Source: Croceibacterium aestuarii (lineage in GTDB: Bacteria > Pseudomonadota > Alphaproteobacteria > Sphingomonadales > Sphingomonadaceae). Taken from it: a DNA stretch of 64,000 nt. Positions 6,375 to 43,684 of this stretch are shown here, piece by piece. The position numbers and the translations under genes are program-made. Within the stretch, counting starts at the first letter, position 1, and each line of letters begins with the position of its first letter. The notes beneath the pieces were generated by a model, which had not been told where the DNA came from, did no database searches, and saw only the letters and a program-made list of their open reading frames with translations. The stretch covers positions 682,001-746,000 of the forward strand of contig NZ_CP131039.1 in the NCBI RefSeq assembly GCF_030657335.1, in the 5' to 3' direction.

Positions 6375-7601
6375 ATGGACATTGCAGTCGAAGACAAGGC
6401 CCCGGCGCGGGTGCCTTTCCCCACCGTCCTGGCGTCGATCGTCGGACTGTGGGTGTGCTATTTCGTTCTGATCACCTTGCGCTCGTTGTCGCTCGAGCTC
6501 GGCTTCGAGAGCGAGATGATCTGGCGGCGCGCGCTGGTCTGCATCGCCGGAGTGGTCACGATGATCGGCTTCTGGCTGATCCTGCGCCTGTTCGACGACA
6601 AGCCGCTGTGGGCCAAGATCGTCGCGGCGCTGATCCTTTCGCTGCCGGTATCGATCATCCTCGCCCAGTCGAACGTTCTGATCTTCGCCTCGGTGGAAGA
6701 GCGCGCATATCGCGCGATGGCCGAACAACAGGGCTTCGAAGTCCGCCGCGATTCGTCGGGCGACCTGCTGGTCGAGGTTTCGGTTCCCGGCGCGACCGAC
6801 GGCGCAGGCAAGCCCAAAGCGGTCACCATCGGACGCAAGTCCGCCGACATGAACGTCTGGCAAAGCCTCGCCGAAATCGGTTTCGGGCGCTATTTCATGC
6901 TGCTGGCCTGGTGTGCGCTATATCTCGCCTTCCTGACCGGCGAGAAAGCGCGCGCAGCCGAGCGCCGCGAGGGCGAATTTCGCCGGGCGGCCAAGGCGGC
7001 CGAGCTTCGTTCGCTGCGGTACCAGGTCAATCCGCACTTCCTGTTCAATACGCTCAATTCGCTGTCCTCGCTGGTCCTGACCGGTAAGACCGCAGCGGCC
7101 GAACGGATGATCCAGACGATGTCGACCTTCTATCGGCGCAGCCTCGCCGGCGATCCGACCGTTGACGTTTCTCTCGACGAGGAATTCGCTCTGCAGCGGC
7201 TCTACCTCGATATCGAGAGGGCTCGTTTTCCCGAGCGTCTCGAAGCCCAGTTCGACCTGCCCGAGGCACTCGGCGATGCCCGGGTCCCCGGCATGATCCT
7301 CCAGCCGCTGGTCGAAAACTCGGTCAAGCACGCGGTCGCCCCGAGCCAGGGCCGAGTGACGATCACCGTGTCCGCGCGCGAGGAGTACGGCCGGCTGGTT
7401 GTAACCGTGGCGGACAACGGTGGAAGCACCGACGCTTCCCATGATCCGCGGCCCGGCTACGGTATTGGCCTGCGCAATGTCGAGCAACGCCTCGCCGCCC
7501 GCTTCGGCGACGAGGCGACGATCGTTTCCGGCCGCTCGTCGGAAGGCTATGCCACGCACTTGCGCCTGCCGCTGGTCGGTGTAGCAAAGGCCGCCGCATG
7601 A
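6375..7601 (+). CDS. LytS-type sensor histidine kinase (HK1)
   Basis: A protein of 408 residues. Four membrane segments lie at about residues 18-40, 52-75, 79-105 and 160-185, with a periplasmic loop between the last two. The His_kinase domain begins at YQVNPHFLFNTLNSLSS, where His221 is the likely phosphoacceptor. The ATPase part shows LQPLVENSVKHAV (N box), VTVADNGG and GYGIGLRNVEQRL. Its stop overlaps the start of the LytTR regulator by four bases (ATGA), so the two form a co-translated pair. The sensory input cannot be read from the sequence. A second pair of the same type is at 48500-50481. Confidence 0.92.
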   Translation: MDIAVEDKAPARVPFPTVLASIVGLWVCYFVLITLRSLSLELGFESEMIWRRALVCIAGVVTMIGFWLILRLFDDKPLWAKIVAALILSLPVSIILAQSNVLIFASVEERAYRAMAEQQGFEVRRDSSGDLLVEVSVPGATDGAGKPKAVTIGRKSADMNVWQSLAEIGFGRYFMLLAWCALYLAFLTGEKARAAERREGEFRRAAKAAELRSLRYQVNPHFLFNTLNSLSSLVLTGKTAAAERMIQTMSTFYRRSLAGDPTVDVSLDEEFALQRLYLDIERARFPERLEAQFDLPEALGDARVPGMILQPLVENSVKHAVAPSQGRVTITVSAREEYGRLVVTVADNGGSTDASHDPRPGYGIGLRNVEQRLAARFGDEATIVSGRSSEGYATHLRLPLVGVAKAAA

Positions 7602-8335
7602 CCGAGCAAGCCACGCAACCGCTCCGCGCGCTGATCGTCGACGACGAGCCGCTGGCGATCGAACGTATGCAGGTCCTCTGCGCCAAACTCGACGACCTCG
7701 CAGTCGTGGGCACGGCAAGCGACGGCAAGTCGGCGCTGCGCCTCGCCGAAACGCTCAAGCCGGACCTGCTTATGCTCGACATGACAATGCCGGGTATGGA
7801 CGGCCTCGCCGTGGCTCGCTCGCTCGCCGAAGGGGAAACGCCGCCGGCAGTGATTTTCGTCACCGCGCATGAAGACTTCGCGGTCGAGGCGTTCGATCTG
7901 GACGCAGTCGACTACGTGCTCAAGCCGGTCGCTTGCGATCGGCTCGAACGCGCTGTCGCACGGGCACTGTCGCGGCGCGGCAGCCGCAAGACGGGCGGAA
8001 GCCGCTGGCTGCGCGAGTTCTGGGTCCCCCACCGGTCCGAGCTGCTGCGCATCGAAGCCGAGCAGGTCGACCGGATCGATGCCGAGCGCGACTATGTCAG
8101 GCTCCATGTGGGCAATCGGAGCTACCTTCTGCTGCAGACCATCGCCGGGCTGGAAGCCAAGCTCGACCCGGAGGAATTCATCCGCATCCACCGTTCGACG
8201 ATTTTGCGACGCGAGGCGATTCGCGGCCTGCGCCACGAAGGTCTTGGCGTCTGGGCCGCGGAGATGGCCGATGGCGAGGCGTTGCGAATCGGCCGCACTT
8301 ACTTGCGCAAGGTCAAGGAAATGGCCGGCCGCTGA
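7598..8335 (+). CDS. LytTR-family response regulator (RR1)
   Basis: A protein of 245 residues. The N-terminal receiver domain (about 1-125) has the acidic pair DDE at 15-17, the phosphoacceptor Asp61 in LMLDMTMPG, and the conserved Thr and Lys in VTAHED and YVLKPV. The C-terminal LytTR DNA-binding domain (about 145-243) shows IDRIDAERDYVRLHV-type start, IRIHRSTILRREAI and the terminal RTYLRKVKEM. It is the cognate regulator of HK1. Members bind direct repeats upstream of their targets, but no target can be assigned here. Confidence 0.93.
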   Translation: MTEQATQPLRALIVDDEPLAIERMQVLCAKLDDLAVVGTASDGKSALRLAETLKPDLLMLDMTMPGMDGLAVARSLAEGETPPAVIFVTAHEDFAVEAFDLDAVDYVLKPVACDRLERAVARALSRRGSRKTGGSRWLREFWVPHRSELLRIEAEQVDRIDAERDYVRLHVGNRSYLLLQTIAGLEAKLDPEEFIRIHRSTILRREAIRGLRHEGLGVWAAEMADGEALRIGRTYLRKVKEMAGR

Positions 8336-8363
8336 CCGGCGCCGGCAAACCGATCCCCTACGA

Positions 8364-8403
8364 CACAAAAAAAGAAGGGCGTCCTCTCGCGAGGGCGCCC
8401 TTC
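8364..8403 (-). terminator. Intrinsic terminator of the UrcA gene
   Basis: A hairpin at 8375-8403 has arms AAGGGCG.CCTC and GAGGGCGCCCTT around a TCGC loop. On the minus strand it is followed by CTTTTTTTG. It lies 20 bases past the stop of the minus-strand UrcA gene. The same stem lies after the plus-strand regulator, but without a good T-run, so it favours the minus strand. Confidence 0.8.
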
Positions 8404-8423
8404 GGCGTGGCGGCTGGGGACGG

Positions 8424-8720
8424 TCAACCGCCGCGCTGGATTTCCGTGGTTAGGTAGGCGACCTGCACCGCCACCTTCTGGCGGGTCGCGCGGTAACAGG
8501 CGTCTTCATCGGCCGGCGTGGCAACCTGGCCATCGTCCTCGAAACGGCAGACTTTGCGCGCAGCCTTGTCGAGCCGGCTCTGCAGTTCGGCCTGCCCGGC
8601 GTCGCTGGTCAGGTCGAGGTCGCTATAAGCGACACGGGCGGTGCGCTCGGTGGCCATGGCGGGGGCGGCGGACAGCGCAGCGGCAAGGGCGCTGCCGATG
8701 ATGAGAGTGCGGGTCGTCAC
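8424..8720 (-). CDS. UrcA-family exported protein
   Basis: A protein of 98 residues starting at the GTG at 8720, which has a near-perfect AGGAGGAG ribosome site seven bases upstream. The signal peptide is TLIIGSALAAALSAAPAMA, with cleavage about residue 23. The mature part has the UrcA pattern: ARVAYSDLDLTSDAGQAEL, then AARKVC, and a second Cys in DEDACYRATR, which probably forms a disulfide. UrcA proteins are small periplasmic proteins of sphingomonads and caulobacters with no known function. It is convergent with RR1 and has its own terminator. Confidence 0.85.
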   Translation of the reverse strand: MTTRTLIIGSALAAALSAAPAMATERTARVAYSDLDLTSDAGQAELQSRLDKAARKVCRFEDDGQVATPADEDACYRATRQKVAVQVAYLTTEIQRGG

Positions 8721-31780: not shown

Positions 31781-32587
31781 ATGGGACAGACACGGGATGC
31801 GGCCGCGCCGCGCGATGCCGCGCTGACCAAGGTCCCCGCGGTGACGCTGGGCTTCTGGGTCATCAAGATCCTCGCCACCACCTTCGGCGAGACGATGGGC
31901 GACACCGTCAGCATGAGCTGGCTCGGCGAAACGACGGCGGCTGCCGGCCGGTCGGGCCTCAACGGCTACCTCGTCGGCACCGCGCTGTTCGGCGGCTTGC
32001 TCGCTCTGCTCGTCTGGCTGCAAGTCCGGGCCCGGCGCTTCCACCCCTATCTCTACTGGGCGACGATCATCGTCTCGACCACCGCCGGTACGACGCTGGC
32101 CGACTTCGCCACGCGGTCGCTCGGCGTCGGCTACCCCGGCGGTTCGTTGCTCCTGCTTGGCCTCGTGGCGGCTTCGCTGCTTACCTGGCACCGCGCGCTC
32201 GGCACGATCTCGGTCCGCTCGGTGCACGAACCCAGGGCCGAGCTCTACTACTGGCTGACCATCACCTTCTCCCAGACGCTCGGCACCGCGCTTGGCGACT
32301 GGGTGGCCGACGGGCCGCTCGGCTACCTCGGCGCGGCGGAAATATTCGGCGGGGCGCTGGCGCTCGTCGCCGCGGCCTATTTCTTCACCCGCGCGAACCG
32401 CGTGGCGCTGTTCTGGGCGGCGTTCATTCTCACCCGCCCGCTGGGCGCGGTCGTCGGCGATTTCCTCGACAAGCCGGTGGCTCATGGCGGGCTCGAACTG
32501 AGCCGGCTGGCGGCATCGCTGGTGCTCGGCGGTGCGATCGTGGCGCTCGTCTGGCTCGTGCCGCAGCGCGCCCAGGTGCGCGGCTGA
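31781..32587 (+). CDS. COG4705-type membrane protein with four repeats
   Basis: A protein of 268 residues with about eight membrane segments. Four similar motifs recur at about equal spacing: TFGETMGDTVS, TTAGTTLADFA, TLGTALGDWVAD and PLGAVVGDFLD. Each ends in a conserved Asp near the membrane. The plan suggests an ancient fourfold duplication and a pore or transporter with four acidic residues. The family is conserved in proteobacteria as uncharacterised COG4705 membrane proteins. It follows the PfkB kinase. Confidence 0.8.
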   Translation: MGQTRDAAAPRDAALTKVPAVTLGFWVIKILATTFGETMGDTVSMSWLGETTAAAGRSGLNGYLVGTALFGGLLALLVWLQVRARRFHPYLYWATIIVSTTAGTTLADFATRSLGVGYPGGSLLLLGLVAASLLTWHRALGTISVRSVHEPRAELYYWLTITFSQTLGTALGDWVADGPLGYLGAAEIFGGALALVAAAYFFTRANRVALFWAAFILTRPLGAVVGDFLDKPVAHGGLELSRLAASLVLGGAIVALVWLVPQRAQVRG

Positions 32588-32645
32588 CGCGCCCCCTTGC
32601 CGCCGGCGGCGCAGCGGGCCATTCTGCGGCCGAAGGGAGAGTGGC

Positions 32646-33134
32646 ATGGCGGGGAAGGTTTCGCTCGAGGATCGCGTCGCTATCGACGAGCTGATGGCGC
32701 GCTATTGCTGGGCGCTCGATACGGGCGATTTCGAAGGCTACGCGGCGACCTTCGCCGAGGACGGCTGGCTGCGCCACTGGCCCCAGGGGCAGTGTGTCGG
32801 GCGCGAAGGGCTCAAGCGGGCGACCGACTCGCTGTGGTACGACAAGCCCAATCACTATCTCGGCCGCCAGCACCGCTTCTCGGCCGTGCTGATGAGCCCG
32901 AAGGGAGAGAACGGGGTGCGGATCAAGGCCTTCTGGTCGATCCTGCAGCACGACGTCGAGACCTTCGAAAACCGGGTCTTCGGCATGGGCACCTGGGACA
33001 CGCTGGCGGTAAGAGAAACAGACGGCGAATGGCGCTTCGCCAGCGTCGATGTCGACCTGTGGATCAAGGGCCAGGTTCCCTGGGTCGGCGAGGATCGGGC
33101 GTGGAAGACTCCGCCGGCCAAGGCGGCCGAGTAG
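32646..33134 (+). CDS. SnoaL-like (NTF2-fold) protein
   Basis: A protein of 162 residues with an NTF2-like fold. It starts LEDRVAIDELMARYCWALD, which is the usual first helix of SnoaL_4 proteins. GDFEGYAATFAEDGWL and the later GEWRFASVDVDLW are typical. Members include dehydratase and ring-hydroxylation subunits and many orphan enzymes. The ATG at 32646 has GGGAGAGTGG upstream. It is followed two bases later by the MFS transporter, which suggests a shared pathway for an aromatic compound, but this is a guess. Confidence 0.82.
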   Translation: MAGKVSLEDRVAIDELMARYCWALDTGDFEGYAATFAEDGWLRHWPQGQCVGREGLKRATDSLWYDKPNHYLGRQHRFSAVLMSPKGENGVRIKAFWSILQHDVETFENRVFGMGTWDTLAVRETDGEWRFASVDVDLWIKGQVPWVGEDRAWKTPPAKAAE

Positions 33135-33135
33135 C

Positions 33136-34368
33136 TTGACCGCCGACAGCCGGGCGGCGCTGCCAGCCCTCGTACAAGTATGGGGGCTCGTGACGGTGGC
33201 GCTGTGTCTCGCCGCGCTCGTGATCGACGGGCTCGACTACCAGTTGCTCGCCCTCACCGCGCCGCTGATCATGGCCGAATGGGCCGTCGCGCGGGCCGAT
33301 TTCGGCACTGCGATGGCCGCCGCGCTGTTCGGCATGGCCTTCGGCGCCGCGGGGGGCGGATGGCTGGGCGACCGGATCGGCCGCGTGCGGGCGCTCGCCC
33401 TGTCCGTGATTCTGTTCGGGTGCGCCACGATGGCGGTGAGCCGGACCGGCGAGATTGCTCCGCTCGCTGCGCTGCGCGTCCTCGGCGGTATCGGCTTCGG
33501 CGCGGCGGGCCCCAATGCGCTCGCGCTGGCCTGCGAATGGATGCCGCTGCGCTTCAGGACCTACGTCGTGGCCTTGCTCTCGGTCGGGACGCCGGCGGGC
33601 GGGATGATCGGCGCGGCCGCGCTGCCCGCCCTGCTGCCGTCGCTCGGCTGGCGCGGGGTTTTCCTCTCGCTGGGAATCGCCGCGGTTGCCCTCGGCGCCG
33701 TGCTTGTCGGTGTCCTGCGCAATCCGGCCCACGAAGCGCGGTCCGCGGTCGGCGCGCGAAGCTTGCTCTCGGCCCCGTTCGCCCGGCTCAATATCGGCGT
33801 GGGGCTCAGTTTCGCCGCGCTGATCGCGATCAGCTACGGTCTCAATGCCTGGATGCCCTCGTTTCTCACCGCGGCCGGATTCACGCTCGAACAGGCCCTG
33901 GCGGCGAGCTTCGCGTTCAATGCCTGCTCGATCCTCGGGGCTTTTGCCGCCGGATGGCTGGCCCGGGCGCAGGGCTCGCGGCGGGTCATGCTGGGCAGTG
34001 CGGTGCTCACCGCGGTCCTTCTCGTATCGTTCGGCGTCACGCTCGACGCCGCACCGGGGGCCCGCGCGGCGATCGATGCGCTCGCCGCCTCGGTCGGTTT
34101 CGCCGCCAGCGTCGGGATCACCACGCTCTACGCCATGGCTGCGCTGCTCTACCCGCCCGAGGTTCGCGCCGGCGGGATCGGGCTGGGCATGACGAGCGGG
34201 CGGATCGGCGGGATCGCGATGAGTTTCGCGGGCGGATACCTGCTCGATTTCGCGGACGGTTCGGCTTCGGTGCTGTTCGGCGTGCTCGCCGCGGCCGCGA
34301 TCGTCGCGACCACCGCGGGCTGGCTGGTGCGCCGCCATATCCCGGCGCACGGATTGGAAGTTTCTTAG
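33136..34368 (+). CDS. MFS transporter, aromatic-acid (AAHS)-like
   Basis: A protein of 410 residues starting at a TTG at 33136, two bases after the SnoaL gene. Twelve membrane segments are visible. The loop 2-3 motif is GWLGDRIGRVRAL, and VIDGLDYQLLALTAPLI in segment 1 is the AAHS-type D-G-x-D motif. It should import a small organic acid with protons; the substrate is unknown. An IR (TTAGGA and TCCTAA) overlaps its stop. Confidence 0.88.
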   Translation: MTADSRAALPALVQVWGLVTVALCLAALVIDGLDYQLLALTAPLIMAEWAVARADFGTAMAAALFGMAFGAAGGGWLGDRIGRVRALALSVILFGCATMAVSRTGEIAPLAALRVLGGIGFGAAGPNALALACEWMPLRFRTYVVALLSVGTPAGGMIGAAALPALLPSLGWRGVFLSLGIAAVALGAVLVGVLRNPAHEARSAVGARSLLSAPFARLNIGVGLSFAALIAISYGLNAWMPSFLTAAGFTLEQALAASFAFNACSILGAFAAGWLARAQGSRRVMLGSAVLTAVLLVSFGVTLDAAPGARAAIDALAASVGFAASVGITTLYAMAALLYPPEVRAGGIGLGMTSGRIGGIAMSFAGGYLLDFADGSASVLFGVLAAAAIVATTAGWLVRRHIPAHGLEVS

Positions 34369-34403: not shown

Positions 34404-35489
34404 ATGGAATTCTCCGCAATCCACATTCCGGTGTTCGACTTGAACACCGCGGAAGGCGCCACGGCGCACCAGCGCGCCTGGCGCCATCTCGAGAGCCGCG
34501 CCACGCTGCCGACCCAGCACCCCGATTTCGTCGCCGCCTTGCGTCCGACGCTGCTCGCCGGCGACGAACTGGCGCTGTTCCAGGTCGAGAGCGAGGGGCG
34601 CTTCGAGGCGGTGCTGCCGCTCGCCCGCTCGCGCCGCGCCTTTTCCCGCTGGCGGCTGGCGGGCGACGACGAGGTGTTCGAACCGGGCGATGTCCTGGCG
34701 CGCGATTCGGTCGCGGCACATCGTCTTGCCACTCTGGTCGCGCGCGAGCGGCGTCCGCTGATCATGGCGCGGGTGCCGGCCAGCTCGGCCTTCGTTCCGG
34801 AGCTGCGCGAAGCGATGCGCGGGCGGGGGCTGGTCGATATACGTCCGGCGCCGCCGTGCCCGACGATCGCGCTGGACGAGAGCTGGGGCGAACCGGAAAG
34901 CCATTTCAGCGCGCGCCGCCGCTCGGACTTTCGCCGCGCTGCGCGCCGCGCCGCCGAATTCGGCGAGGCGACGTTCGAGATCCTCACGCCGACCCCTGGA
35001 GATTTCGACGCGGCCTTCGATGCCGCCATCGCGGTCGAGGCCGCCGGCTGGAAACGCGCCGCCGGCTCGGCGATTGCCTGCGACCCGCGCAAGGAGGCCT
35101 TCTTCCGCGCCTATCTCAAGGCGGCGAGCGAGAACTGGAACTGCCGCATCTCCTTTCTCAGGCTCGGCGGGCGGATCGCTGCAATGCACCTCGCGGTCGA
35201 GCTGGGCGGGCGGCACTGGCTCTACAAGATCGGGTTCGACGAACGCTTCGGCCGCTGCTCGCCCGGCACGCTGCTCATGCTTCACGCGCTCGGCGATGCG
35301 GCGCGGCGCGGGATCAAGCGCTTCGAGCTGATGGGCGACGCGGAGAGCTGGATCGCCGACCTGTGGACGCGCGAGGCGCATCCCTGCGTGCAGCTCAGGA
35401 CCTACCCCTTCGGCCCGGCCGGCGCCGCCGCGTTCGCCGCCGACAGCGCTCGCTGGACGTGGCGGCGGCTGGCCCGGGTGCGGCGATGA
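34404..35489 (+). CDS. CelD-type GNAT acetyltransferase (BioF2-like)
   Basis: A protein of 361 residues of the GNAT_6/CelD group, which is related to FemAB transferases. The N-terminal half has HQRAWRHLESRATLPTQHPDFV; the C-terminal GNAT half has AIAVEAAGWKRAAGSAIACD, FFRAYLKAASENW and FDERFGRCSPGTLLMLHAL. Members often act in polysaccharide production, transferring an acyl or aminoacyl group. The start is the ATG at 34404 (GAGGGGCAACGA upstream). Its stop overlaps the next gene by four bases, so the pair is co-translated. Confidence 0.85.
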   Translation: MEFSAIHIPVFDLNTAEGATAHQRAWRHLESRATLPTQHPDFVAALRPTLLAGDELALFQVESEGRFEAVLPLARSRRAFSRWRLAGDDEVFEPGDVLARDSVAAHRLATLVARERRPLIMARVPASSAFVPELREAMRGRGLVDIRPAPPCPTIALDESWGEPESHFSARRRSDFRRAARRAAEFGEATFEILTPTPGDFDAAFDAAIAVEAAGWKRAAGSAIACDPRKEAFFRAYLKAASENWNCRISFLRLGGRIAAMHLAVELGGRHWLYKIGFDERFGRCSPGTLLMLHALGDAARRGIKRFELMGDAESWIADLWTREAHPCVQLRTYPFGPAGAAAFAADSARWTWRRLARVRR

Positions 35490-36298
35490 ACCTGGCGCTG
35501 CGCGAGCGCCTGCGCCGCGCGCGCTATGCGCTGCCCGAGCTGGTCGAGACCGCGGCGCCCCGCCTCGACATCGATGCCGCGGTGCGGCACATCGCCGGCG
35601 TGGGTGGGCGCGGCGTTCGCACCACGGCGGGCTATTTCCACGCCAGCCGCGAAAGCGCGGCGGAAGTCGCCGCCATCTGGCGCGATCTGGCCGCGGGGCT
35701 GGCTGCCGCTGCGATCGACACCCGCATCGCGATAAAGGCCAACGCGCTCGGCTTCGACCCCGCGTCCATTTCCGCCATCGCGGCGAGCGGAGTGCCGCTG
35801 AGCTTCGATGCCATGGCCCCGGCCTGGGCCGACGACATCCTCGCGCTGGGACGGGAATTCGCCGCCGGCGTGGCGCTTCCCGCGCGCTGGCACCGCAGTC
35901 CGGCCGATGCCCGGGCCTTGCGCAATGGGCCGTGCCGCATTCGCTTGGTCAAGGGCGAATGGGCCGACCCGTCGGCCGACGTTCCCGACCCCTTTGCCGC
36001 CTATCTGGCCCTGACCGAAAGCCTCGCCGGCCGCGCCGGCCCGGTCGGAATCGCGACGCACGACCCGGCGCTGGCCGAAGCAGCGCTGACCATCCTCGCG
36101 GCGGCCGGGACGCCATGCGAGCTCGAGCAGCTGCGCGGGCTGCCGCGGCGGCGCACCGTGGCGATTGCCAGAAGGCTCGGCGTGCCGGTTCGGCTCTACC
36201 TCCCGTTCGGGCCCGGCTGGTGGCCTTACGCGGTCAATCAGGCGCTCGCCCGCCCGCACCTCCCGCTGTGGGCGATGCGCGATGCGCTCGGCCTCTGA
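35486..36298 (+). CDS. Proline-dehydrogenase-like TIM-barrel protein lacking the Arg pair
   Basis: A protein of 270 residues matching proline dehydrogenase (PRODH) blocks by eye: IAIKANALGFD for the SIKxTALG strand, IRLVKGEW for LVKGAY, GIATHDPAL, CELEQLRGLP, and VRLYLPFGPGWWPYAVNQALAR for VRVYVPYGxxWxPYxxRRLxER. The two arginines that bind the proline carboxylate are Asn251 and Gln252 here. FAD-binding positions appear kept. It may oxidise a different substrate or have lost activity. It is co-translated with the CelD gene and convergent with purD. Confidence 0.75.
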   Translation: MNLALRERLRRARYALPELVETAAPRLDIDAAVRHIAGVGGRGVRTTAGYFHASRESAAEVAAIWRDLAAGLAAAAIDTRIAIKANALGFDPASISAIAASGVPLSFDAMAPAWADDILALGREFAAGVALPARWHRSPADARALRNGPCRIRLVKGEWADPSADVPDPFAAYLALTESLAGRAGPVGIATHDPALAEAALTILAAAGTPCELEQLRGLPRRRTVAIARRLGVPVRLYLPFGPGWWPYAVNQALARPHLPLWAMRDALGL

Positions 36299-40216: not shown

Positions 40217-40576
40217 GCCGCGAGTCATCCAAGCATAAAGTTTCTGCGTCATCGACCTGCGGTGCAATTTTGCAACGCTTCCTGCGGTTGCATTTGAAAC
40301 ATTGTTGCAAAACCCGCGGAATTCGTCGATTTCTGAGTGTCGTTGGTCGGCTCACAGCCCCGTGTGGCAATTTGGTTACAGCTGAAAACCAATGTCCCCG
40401 GCGGCGGACAAGAGCTTTGACCCGCGCCCCCAAGTTCTCCCATTGCACCGCATCATTTTCCGATTGGGATTCGCGTGCCCGAAGCGCGCGGATGGGGCCG
40501 GCGAGGCCACTGTTCGGAAATGCTCAAGGTATCGTCGCAGTTCCGGCGGCGGCCTTTGGAAAAAAGGGACTGGAAC
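40217..40576 (+). promoter_or_regulatory. AT-rich leader of the TonB-dependent receptor with TTGCA repeats
   Basis: A 360-base gap with no convincing gene. It carries TGCAA-TT-TTGCA at 40263-40274, a TTGCA at 40288 and a TTGCAA at 40305-40310. Such motifs resemble LacI-type operators found before TonB-receptor genes, by general knowledge. The ribosome site AAAAAAGGGA lies just before the GTG start at 40577. The promoter position is not clear. Confidence 0.5.
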
Positions 40577-43500
40577 GTGAAATCATTCCTCAAGAAATCG
40601 GCTCTGTGCGGCGCTAGCTGCCTGCAAGCCCTCTCCGTCGCCGGCATCGGTGTCGGCGCTCTCGCTCTGGCCACTCCGGCTGCAGCGCAGGACTACACGG
40701 CCGGCGCTGTCACCGGCACCGTCACGGACGAATCGGGCAACCCGGTCACGGGCGCTACCGTCACCCTGACCTCGACTGATCAGGGCTTCAGCCGCACGAG
40801 CTCCACGGGCCCCAACGGGAACTTCCGCTTCGGCGGCCTGCCCACCGGATCCTACAGCATTAAGGTTGAATCGGCCAACACCGCCAATTTCACCGCTACC
40901 GACGTGAGCGTACTCGCCGGTCAAACGGCTTCGCTTCCGATCACCGTCGCCGCTGTCGGCGGAAATGAGATTGTCGTCACCGCGGCGCAGATTCAGCAAC
41001 CCTTCACGGGCACTACGACGGGCGTGAACGTCGACGTAGCCGAGCTGACCAAGACCGTTCCGATCAGCCGCGATCTCACGTCTGTCGTACTGCTGGCGCC
41101 GGGCACTACCAAGGGCGACACTGCCTTCGGCAACCTCGCGTCGATCGGCGGCTCATCGGTCGCGGAAAACGCCTATTATATCAACGGACTCAACATCACG
41201 AACTTCGACAACTACGTCGGTTCATCGCGGGTGCCGTTTGAATTTTACCGCTCGGTCGAAGTGAAGTCGGGCGGCTATCCGGCGGAATTCGGCCGTGCCA
41301 CCGGCGGCATCGTCAACGCCGTGTCGAAGTCGGGCTCAAATGAGTTCACTGCTGCGCTCCATCTCAACTGGACCCCAACCTGGGCCACTTCGGCGGGCAA
41401 GGATCTCACGCTCAACGACGGCTACAAGACCACGAATCGCGCATTCGACTCCCGCCGCGGCAGTGACTATTCTGCGATCGCCGAGCTCGGCATGCCGATC
41501 ATTCGCGATCGACTGTTCGTCTACGGTCTCCTCGAATATCGCAACAGCGATGTCTACACGACGAGCCGTTCGGGTCGCTCGACCAATCGCGATCGTTCGA
41601 ACGATCCGTTCTATGCGATCAAGGTAGATGCTTTCCCGATCGACAGTCAGCACCTCGAATTCACGCTGTTCGACACCCGCCGGACCACAACCCGCCAGGT
41701 ATACCGGTATCAGGAGAGCCCCGAGGGAGTCGCCTCGCTTGGCGCCGTTACCTCGACGCGCGAATATAATGCCGGTGGTGTGAACTTCGTGGGCAAGTAC
41801 ACGGGACAGTTCACCAACTGGCTCACCCTGTCTGCTGCATACGGTCGGATGCGCGATCGCTTCGACAGCGAGGGCATCGATACCGCGTCCAACAATCCGT
41901 ACTTCCGCAACGTTTCGGGCGGCACTCTGTTCGGTGTTCCTGATCGCGGTTATTTCACCCCACAACGGGCAAGTTCGGCGGAATTCCCCTACACTACGGA
42001 ACGCAAGTTCTATCGGGCTGATGCCGACGTCCTTTTCAGTCTGTTCGGCGATCACCATGTTCGTGGCGGCTTCGATAAGGAAGACAACACTCTCGCTCAC
42101 AATACGGTCCGGACCGGCGGCCCATTCGAACTGGCGAACGGGTACATTACCCAGACGGCGTTCGATGCTGGCAACGGCGGGGCAGGCGTGGTCTATATCG
42201 CCAACCCTGACCAGAACGGTCAGCACCAGGTGGAAGTGAACTACTACAACACAGGTGGTACCTTCACTTCGACCAACCAGGCGTTCTATCTCGAGGACGA
42301 ATGGCAGGTGACCGATCGGCTGACCGTAAACCTGGGTGTGCGTCGCGATGATTTCCAGGTCAACAAGCCGGACGGCACCGTGTTCCTTGAAAACAAGAAG
42401 AACTACGCCCCCCGTCTGGGTCTGACCTACGAACTGTTCCCGGAATCGAACGGTCGCGTCTACGCAACTTATGGGCAGTACTTCCTGCCGCTGGCCAGCA
42501 ACACGGCGTACCGTGCTGCGGGTGCGGAATACTACATCCGCGAACAATTCAGCTTCTCGGGGCTGGACGCCAACGGCCTTCCGATTCTCTCCGGTCAGAT
42601 CGACGACCCTGATTATTCGAAGACCTGTCCCTTCAACATCACCGGCTCGCCGTTCTCCAGCGGAACGCGCTGCGCCGTAACGGGAGATGGCTCGGTTAAG
42701 GATCCGAAGTATTACATCGGCCAGGATCTGAAGGCGACGCGTGAATCGGAGTGGATCGTCGGTTACGAGCAGAATGTCGGCCCAGTAAAGGTCGGAATAA
42801 GCTACACGCATCGTAACCTCGATCATACGAGCGAGGATGCCAGCCTCGCTACGGCGATCCTGAACTATTGCGATGCCAACAACATCACCGATTGTCCGGC
42901 CGCCTCGTCCGTGACCGGAAGCGAGCAGTTCGCAATCATCAACCCGGGCGAAGACGTCACGGTGATCGCCGATCCGTTTTGGGGTCCAACTTTGGGCGAC
43001 ACGGAGATCACGATCCCCGCTAAGCTTACCGGATATCCGAAAGCTACCCGCAAGTATGACGCGGTTTCGCTGACCGTGGACAAGCCTTGGGATGGGCGCT
43101 GGAGTCTAGGAGGCAACTACACCTGGTCGAAGAGCAAGGGTAATTCGGAAGGCTTCGTGCAGTCGGACATCGGACAGGACGATGCCGGCGCAACGATCGA
43201 CTTCGACTTCCCCGGGTTCACCGAAGGCTCATACGGCTATCTGCCGAATGATCGTCGCCATCGGATCGCGCTTTACGGCGCCTACGGGTTGACGGATTCG
43301 CTCATCCTCGGCGCTAACATCTCGATCCAGTCGCCGCGGCACCTGAGCTGCTTCGGCGCCTATCCAACAGTGAACTTTGCCCAGAACTACGGTACCGGCT
43401 ACGTCCACTATTGCGGGGGCAAGCTTTCGCCCCGTGGAACGGCGACCACGACGAACTGGTTGGAGCAGACGAACCTGTCAGCGCGTTACAAGATCAACGT

Positions 43501-43684
43501 GCCGACGGGGCAGGAACTTACGTTCCGCGCCGACGTCTTCAACGTCTTCAACTCGCAGGCGGTCACATACCGCAACGAGACCGGGGATCTGAATTCCAGC
43601 TTCGCTCCCGATCCGGAGTTCGGCCGGCCCGCGTCCTACCAGTCACCGCGTTCGGTCAGGTTTGGGCTGGACATTACCTTCTAA
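40577..43684 (+). CDS. TonB-dependent receptor with carboxypeptidase-regulatory domain
   Basis: A protein of 1,035 residues from the GTG at 40577. The signal peptide ends at about residue 37 (ALATPAAAQ). A CarboxypepD_reg-like beta-sandwich follows (VTGTVTDESGNPVTGATVTL), then the TonB-box-like EIVVTA, the plug domain (about residues 140-250; YYINGLNITNFDNYVGSSR) and a large beta-barrel ending in SVRFGLDITF. It is of the Oar/OmpA-related type. Codon bias is weaker and GC lower than its neighbours, as is usual for large surface proteins. Its substrate is unknown. A terminator follows. Confidence 0.92.
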   Translation: MKSFLKKSALCGASCLQALSVAGIGVGALALATPAAAQDYTAGAVTGTVTDESGNPVTGATVTLTSTDQGFSRTSSTGPNGNFRFGGLPTGSYSIKVESANTANFTATDVSVLAGQTASLPITVAAVGGNEIVVTAAQIQQPFTGTTTGVNVDVAELTKTVPISRDLTSVVLLAPGTTKGDTAFGNLASIGGSSVAENAYYINGLNITNFDNYVGSSRVPFEFYRSVEVKSGGYPAEFGRATGGIVNAVSKSGSNEFTAALHLNWTPTWATSAGKDLTLNDGYKTTNRAFDSRRGSDYSAIAELGMPIIRDRLFVYGLLEYRNSDVYTTSRSGRSTNRDRSNDPFYAIKVDAFPIDSQHLEFTLFDTRRTTTRQVYRYQESPEGVASLGAVTSTREYNAGGVNFVGKYTGQFTNWLTLSAAYGRMRDRFDSEGIDTASNNPYFRNVSGGTLFGVPDRGYFTPQRASSAEFPYTTERKFYRADADVLFSLFGDHHVRGGFDKEDNTLAHNTVRTGGPFELANGYITQTAFDAGNGGAGVVYIANPDQNGQHQVEVNYYNTGGTFTSTNQAFYLEDEWQVTDRLTVNLGVRRDDFQVNKPDGTVFLENKKNYAPRLGLTYELFPESNGRVYATYGQYFLPLASNTAYRAAGAEYYIREQFSFSGLDANGLPILSGQIDDPDYSKTCPFNITGSPFSSGTRCAVTGDGSVKDPKYYIGQDLKATRESEWIVGYEQNVGPVKVGISYTHRNLDHTSEDASLATAILNYCDANNITDCPAASSVTGSEQFAIINPGEDVTVIADPFWGPTLGDTEITIPAKLTGYPKATRKYDAVSLTVDKPWDGRWSLGGNYTWSKSKGNSEGFVQSDIGQDDAGATIDFDFPGFTEGSYGYLPNDRRHRIALYGAYGLTDSLILGANISIQSPRHLSCFGAYPTVNFAQNYGTGYVHYCGGKLSPRGTATTTNWLEQTNLSARYKINVPTGQELTFRADVFNVFNSQAVTYRNETGDLNSSFAPDPEFGRPASYQSPRSVRFGLDITF

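Follow-up and report, generated by a model that had tools for sequence, protein, structure and literature searches.

A FemX-fold acyltransferase and a proline dehydrogenase-like protein lacking the substrate Arg-Arg pair form a linked two-gene unit in Sphingomonadales

A FemX-fold GNAT acyltransferase and a proline dehydrogenase (PRODH)-like protein are encoded side by side in the window, the whole 64,000-nucleotide stretch analyzed here, and constitute a real functional unit. PRODH is described as a conserved, proline-specific enzyme, and the PRODH-like protein of the pair lacks the Arg-Arg clamp for the substrate carboxylate. We tentatively propose, with slightly less than even confidence, that the pair is a two-protein enzyme of Sphingomonadales that acylates and oxidizes an amine having no free carboxylate; this amine may be part of a surface glycan or of a glycan precursor. 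With the catalytic base and the majority of flavin-side residues kept, the substrate end rebuilt, and a tie to an acyltransferase, this would be a clear new function in the PRODH fold. No published description of such a pair was found in the searches made of an open-access library. The features in the window, which belongs to a genome of a single 3.35-Mb contig, are as follows.

34404..35489, + strand: FemX-fold (CelD-type, PF13480) GNAT acyltransferase, 361 aa (PF13480 E 1.2e-32; AlphaFold2 pLDDT 93.1; VIA Z 21.8 to FemX 4ii9)
35486..36298, + strand: PRODH-like protein with a predicted barrel, 270 aa, ATG start (profile against 2ekg E 8.9e-28; AlphaFold2 pLDDT 89.2; VIA Z 23.5 to 4h6r)
35486..35489, + strand: ATGA stop/start overlap, four bases common to both genes (sequence)
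35735..35737, + strand: Lys84 codon, equivalent of the catalytic Lys (Lys329 in PutA, Lys99 in Thermus; Lys in 43/44 relatives, one gap)
35942..35944, + strand: Arg153 codon, corresponding to Arg431 of PutA, which contacts FAD (Arg in 44/44)
36059..36061, + strand: His192 codon, equivalent of the flavin-phosphate His227 of Thermus PRODH (His in 44/44)
36236..36241, + strand: Asn251-Gln252 codons at the position of the Arg-Arg clamp (sequence and phmmer alignment; Arg-Arg in 0/44 relatives)

The four-base overlap and the CelD-type assignment of the first gene, both part of the original prediction, are borne out by the sequence and by Pfam, respectively. Of 40 same-strand, unfused, non-duplicate pairs with automatically chosen starts, 35 overlap by 4 bp, three by 1 bp, one by 11 bp, and one by 28 bp. 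Both genes appear from sequence comparison to be under purifying selection; the ratios calculated from the dN and dS values against Croceibacterium salegens are approximately 0.16 for the GNAT and 0.19 for the PRODH-like gene.

Co-occurrence in other genomes had been proposed as a check, with its absence as a refuting condition, and the pair is kept in 36 of the 37 loci found by scanning genome contigs with a four-sequence alignment. Thirty-six loci are in Sphingomonadales or in records labeled just Pseudomonadota/Proteobacteria, while one is in an Acidobacteria MAG. In all but this last locus (L041), the GNAT gene immediately precedes the PRODH-like gene on the same strand; in L041, there is a 65-residue GNAT match upstream. 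This copy of the pair (approximately 7590-8639), truncated or frameshifted and far outside Sphingomonadales, may have been transferred and then decayed, or may reflect an assembly error. Among 298 genomes of the host's family, 15 have both genes, none has the PRODH-like gene alone, and one has the GNAT alone (cut-offs, E < 1e-40 for the PRODH-like protein and E ≤ 1e-30 for the GNAT; four weak PRODH-like matches at approximately 1e-4 were uncounted). The Fisher p value is 2e-24, a statistic that ignores relatedness. The GNAT-alone genome (G193) is 67% complete and shows the weakest GNAT match, with no PRODH-like gene beside it.

The two genes are fused once. In Altererythrobacter segetis (L013, 6869-8795), the GNAT and the PRODH-like protein are in one open frame, and the junction is 23 nt shorter than that of L010, with neither a stop nor a start. 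Near the expected N terminus of this frame there is only CTG, with no in-frame ATG, GTG, or TTG. The GNAT and PRODH-like distances among 41 main-branch members are correlated (r 0.87; none of 2000 permutations as high), which could be explained by species descent alone.

Besides the pair, every neighbor cluster is confined to 10 or fewer of the 39 loci, and this comparison gave no third constant partner gene; in L024, neither pair gene was assigned to the cluster of the pair by this clustering, which uses a simple gene caller. Flanks common by descent occur in groups of 10, 7, and 3 loci, and the purD-xseA/pfkB flank of the window is common to the loci of the L005-L014 group only. Such flanks and the patchy distribution would agree with two genes of separate functions that are adjacent by chance or shared descent. 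This explanation is hardly tenable and is largely refuted, since the pair is adjacent in 36 loci whose other neighbors differ, with near-perfect co-occurrence in the 298 genomes, the 4-bp overlap, and one fusion.

The PRODH-like protein contains four blocks, IKANALG, LVKGEW, ATHD, and YLPFGPGWWPY, in the order expected for PRODH, as had been noted from the sequence. Its single-sequence search against PRODHs in the PDB gave E values from 9.6e-9 to 7.7e-6, and the profile of the 44-member family (five exact duplicates removed) gave 8.9e-28 to 2.6e-25, covering nearly the full length against Thermus thermophilus PRODH (8.9e-28). With Pfam Pro_dh (PF01619), the window protein scores 19 bits, below the gathering score of 27, and matches at E ≤ 0.01 were obtained for 41 of the 44 family members, the best at 5.1e-10. 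Structure prediction had been set beforehand as a refuting test, and the barrel was found: AlphaFold2 with the 44 family sequences gave a model with a pLDDT of 89.2 and a pTM of 0.84. In a Foldseek search of the PDB with this model, ranks 1-39 are all PRODH or PutA, and VIA superimposes it on Deinococcus radiodurans PRODH with a Z score of 23.5 and an rmsd of 3.0 over 237 residues. The protein is thus predicted to have a true PRODH (β/α)8 barrel. A chance resemblance is ruled out by the E values of the GNAT against PF13480 and of the single-sequence and profile searches against the PDB. The IKANALG block suggests a PLP-dependent alanine racemase-like barrel, a candidate that was rejected as both the sequence and fold searches rank PRODH first. 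The gene does not encode the housekeeping enzyme either, because the genome carries a canonical PutA-type PRODH at another locus. In a tree built from 43 members of the family and nine other PRODHs (L041 left out), the family is placed behind a branch with 100/100 support and a length of 1.08, with the program warning of long branches meeting at this family/PRODH split.

The position of the carboxylate clamp should be noted. Residues 251-252, Asn-Gln, lie opposite the RR of YLTRRIAERP of Thermus PRODH in the phmmer alignment, as originally predicted from the sequence. In the sections of PMC6017737 drawn on here, the substrate Arg pair is numbered 288-RRIAERP, the Tyr-x-x-Arg-Arg of helix α8 that binds the substrate carboxylate is described as strictly conserved, and Glu65 is paired with Arg288 as a gate. 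Among the 44 relatives, the Tyr is retained in all and Arg-Arg in none; the pairs are Asp-Lys in 20, Glu-Gln in five, Glu-Lys in five, Asn-Gln in three, and others in 11 (L113 and L114 are left out of this readout). Position 251 is acidic in 31 and position 252 is Lys in 29. Loss of the intact clamp is thus a trait of the family. The gate-Glu column (β1-α1 loop) has no Glu among the 43 sequences with a letter there, whereas all nine references have Glu. A Gln found in 9/9 reference PRODHs is replaced by Pro in 44/44 relatives, and the Glu559 column has Glu in just eight of 44. Residues specific to the family are Pro132, Arg134, and Trp159 (44/44 each) and Glu158 (43/44).

Contrarily, most of the flavin-side residues are kept, with equivalences assigned from sequence alignments and published roles taken from portions of PMC10651016, PMC3718742, and PMC5335563. 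The catalytic Lys role is given for Lys329 of PutA and Lys99 of Thermus PRODH (parts of PMC10651016 and PMC6017737), Arg431 of PutA contacts FAD (part of PMC3718742), and His227 of Thermus PRODH is a flavin-phosphate residue (part of PMC5335563). The window protein retains K84, D108, R153, K156, T191, H192, Y238, and Y248. In the 44 relatives, the columns are retained as follows: catalytic Lys, 43 (one gap); Asp370, 44; Arg431, 44; Lys187, 44; Thr226, 43; His227, 44; Tyr540, 42; and Tyr552, 44. The catalytic Lys, the FAD Arg, and the phosphate Lys/Thr/His are near-invariant down to approximately 31% identity. Decay explains this pattern of retention and loss less well than a flavin site that is still live and a substrate end that has been rebuilt, suggesting that the flavin site is probably working. 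Flavin binding may nevertheless be altered, because the Gln is Pro throughout and the Glu559 column is mostly lost.

A barrel reused as a non-catalytic scaffold or regulatory subunit of the GNAT would also account for the loss of the clamp, the gate Glu, and the Glu559 equivalents and for the Pro in place of the reference Gln, and the overlap and fusion fit an obligate complex. We consider such a role rather unlikely, since a scaffold needs none of the near-invariant catalytic Lys, FAD Arg, and flavin-phosphate Lys/Thr/His residues.

The protein may instead still be a dehydrogenase of proline (or hydroxyproline or pipecolate) in which the carboxylate is held by other residues, for example Arg134 and Lys252. 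The invariance of Arg134, the frequent Lys at 252, the K-R or S-R pairs of a divergent branch described below, and the variable first Arg in three of nine other PRODH-like proteins point in this direction. However, the window protein has Asn-Gln, a carboxylate would be repelled by the acidic residue common at 251, PutA is already available in the genome, and proline catabolism needs no link to an acyltransferase. We regard this possibility, too, as an unlikely one.

The reading that we prefer, a flavoenzyme that acts on a substrate without a free carboxylate in a two-step modification, was part of the original prediction. It agrees in part with the alignments: the clamp is lost in 44/44 with the base and most flavin-side residues kept, but the absence of a carboxylate is less well matched, as a divergent branch keeps the second Arg in 4/4 members and the first Arg varies in 3/9 references. 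The divergent branch comprises G153, G180, G1038, and G1054 (L073, L074, L110, and L109, respectively), with clamp pairs of K-R, K-R, S-R, and K-R. Loss of both Arg residues is accordingly a trait of the main branch.

In the divergent genomes, the pair is inside polysaccharide clusters. The surroundings include Wzz, several glycosyltransferases, and a second PF13480 GNAT in G153; Poly_export, Polysacc_synt, glycosyltransferases, and a second GNAT in G180; a polysaccharide pyruvyl transferase, a glycosyltransferase, and an Acyl_transf_3 protein in G1038; and a family-2 glycosyltransferase in G1054. The pair genes adjoin in three of the four (convergent in G153), and approximately 16 kb of a single contig separates them in G1054. 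A GINT1_N (PF24793) glycosyltransferase gene is present in 4/4 divergent genomes, 0/13 main-branch genomes, and 3/20 control genomes; as a general partner it was rejected on these counts. No polysaccharide or glycan cluster was seen in the neighborhoods of the main-branch pairs. If the divergent branch is a guide, the modification of surface glycans in bacteria would gain an oxidative step through the pair.

The GNAT matches Pfam Acetyltransf_6 (PF13480) with 113.5 bits against a gathering score of 22. The nearest structural neighbor of its model in VIA is FemX (4ii9; rmsd 3.6 over 299 residues), and the double-GNAT fold is present; FemA, Sba18/Sbb17, and MprF follow with Z scores down to approximately 16, and the best CoA-dependent tandem GNATs give approximately 15. 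The GNAT profile gave nothing relevant against PDB sequences and no match to a solved aminoacyl transferase. The double-GNAT fold is probably common to PF13480 proteins in general, and therefore the structural ranking does not identify the donor of the GNAT. At the presumed position of FemX Lys305, an equivalence assigned with no FemX sequence in the alignment, Ile is found in 39 of 41 pair GNATs (L018, L036, L041, and duplicates removed) and Lys in four of nine other PF13480-type proteins. A review (PMC12945691) describes FemX-like GNATs of natural-product pathways that depend on charged tRNA and have a Lys in the active site.

These features bear on a further explanation, in which the GNAT depends on aminoacyl-tRNA and loads a prolyl residue as an amide, and the PRODH-like protein oxidizes this residue in place. 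In a related and equally improbable reading, the two proteins form one enzyme that would load a prolyl-like residue onto an envelope saccharide or lipid and oxidize it there to a pyrroline-type (imine) decoration, as an amide-level proline dehydrogenase. The lost clamp agrees with a prolyl bound as an amide, since its carboxylate is not free, and the FemX, FemA, Sba18/Sbb17, and MprF matches rank above the CoA-dependent ones. The tRNA-dependent explanation is nonetheless improbable given the probable generality of the fold, the Ile at the presumed Lys305 column, and the lack of a sequence-level match to a solved aminoacyl transferase.

Returning to the preferred two-protein enzyme, the unit would consist of a FemX-fold acyltransferase and a re-purposed PRODH, probably still flavin-binding. 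The N5 atom of the flavin in the barrel would take a hydride from the carbon attached to nitrogen in a secondary or cyclic amine, the acid end of which would be absent or already linked. Since Arg-Arg is replaced mostly by an acidic or amide residue and Lys or Gln, what is recognized is probably not a carboxylate but a neutral or basic group. The GNAT would make or consume the substrate amine by N-acylation. The gene overlap and the fusion suggest that the two proteins may work in a complex or pass an unstable intermediate from one to the other. A modified saccharide or another envelope precursor is the most likely product, because the divergent branch of four genomes sits in polysaccharide clusters. 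This is the weakest step of the proposal. The second Arg is present in the sole branch with glycan clusters, and the main branch has no glycan neighbors. The pair is small, occurs in cultured isolates without other constant partners, and is fused once, so the cofactor, the complex, and the substrate are each directly testable.

Monofunctional PRODHs from T. thermophilus (2g37/2ekg) and D. radiodurans (4h6q/4h6r) have the same barrel (Z 22-23.5, full-length profile match) and share the columns of the catalytic Lys, the FAD Arg, the phosphate Lys/Thr/His, and the active-site Tyr residues. The pair protein differs from them in lacking the clamp, the gate Glu, and the conserved Gln, in having the new Pro132, Trp159, and Glu158, and in being coupled to a GNAT. 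The PRODH domain of PutA also has the same fold (Z approximately 20-21) and catalytic columns, but the pair protein has neither an aldehyde dehydrogenase domain nor the clamp. In plasmid-borne PRODH-like proteins of Streptomyces and Metabacillus (L076, L079, and L081), the first Arg is replaced as well (N-R, H-R, and H-R, respectively). Unlike the pair family, these proteins retain both the second Arg and the gate Glu and have Asp at the catalytic-Lys column, and they fall outside the family in the tree. The H-R protein encoded on the plasmid of Streptomyces sp. NBC_01006 (L081, 1111-2088) is labeled a "proline dehydrogenase family protein" and is surrounded by fatty acid desaturase, aminotransferase, and AMP-binding genes, an arrangement like that of a biosynthetic cluster. 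CarD of carbapenem biosynthesis is another PRODH relative. The FemX/FemABX, MprF, and Sba18-type aminoacyl transferases share the double-GNAT fold with the pair GNAT (Z 16-22), which shows no detectable sequence match to them and has Ile at the presumed catalytic Lys column. PF13480 proteins of polysaccharide clusters belong to the same Pfam family, over the cut-off; they have YK, whereas the pair GNAT has a WK...GT/S-A motif and the Ile.

A PHROGs search gave no match for the GNAT or the PRODH-like protein. Genes for a SnoaL-like protein and an MFS transporter (32532-34368) are located just upstream of the pair in the window on the same strand; they are downstream in L006 and were not found in L007-L014, and are thus not constant partners. 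A large outer-membrane TonB receptor-like protein with an N-terminal carboxypeptidase-regulatory domain is encoded at 40475-43684 in the window.
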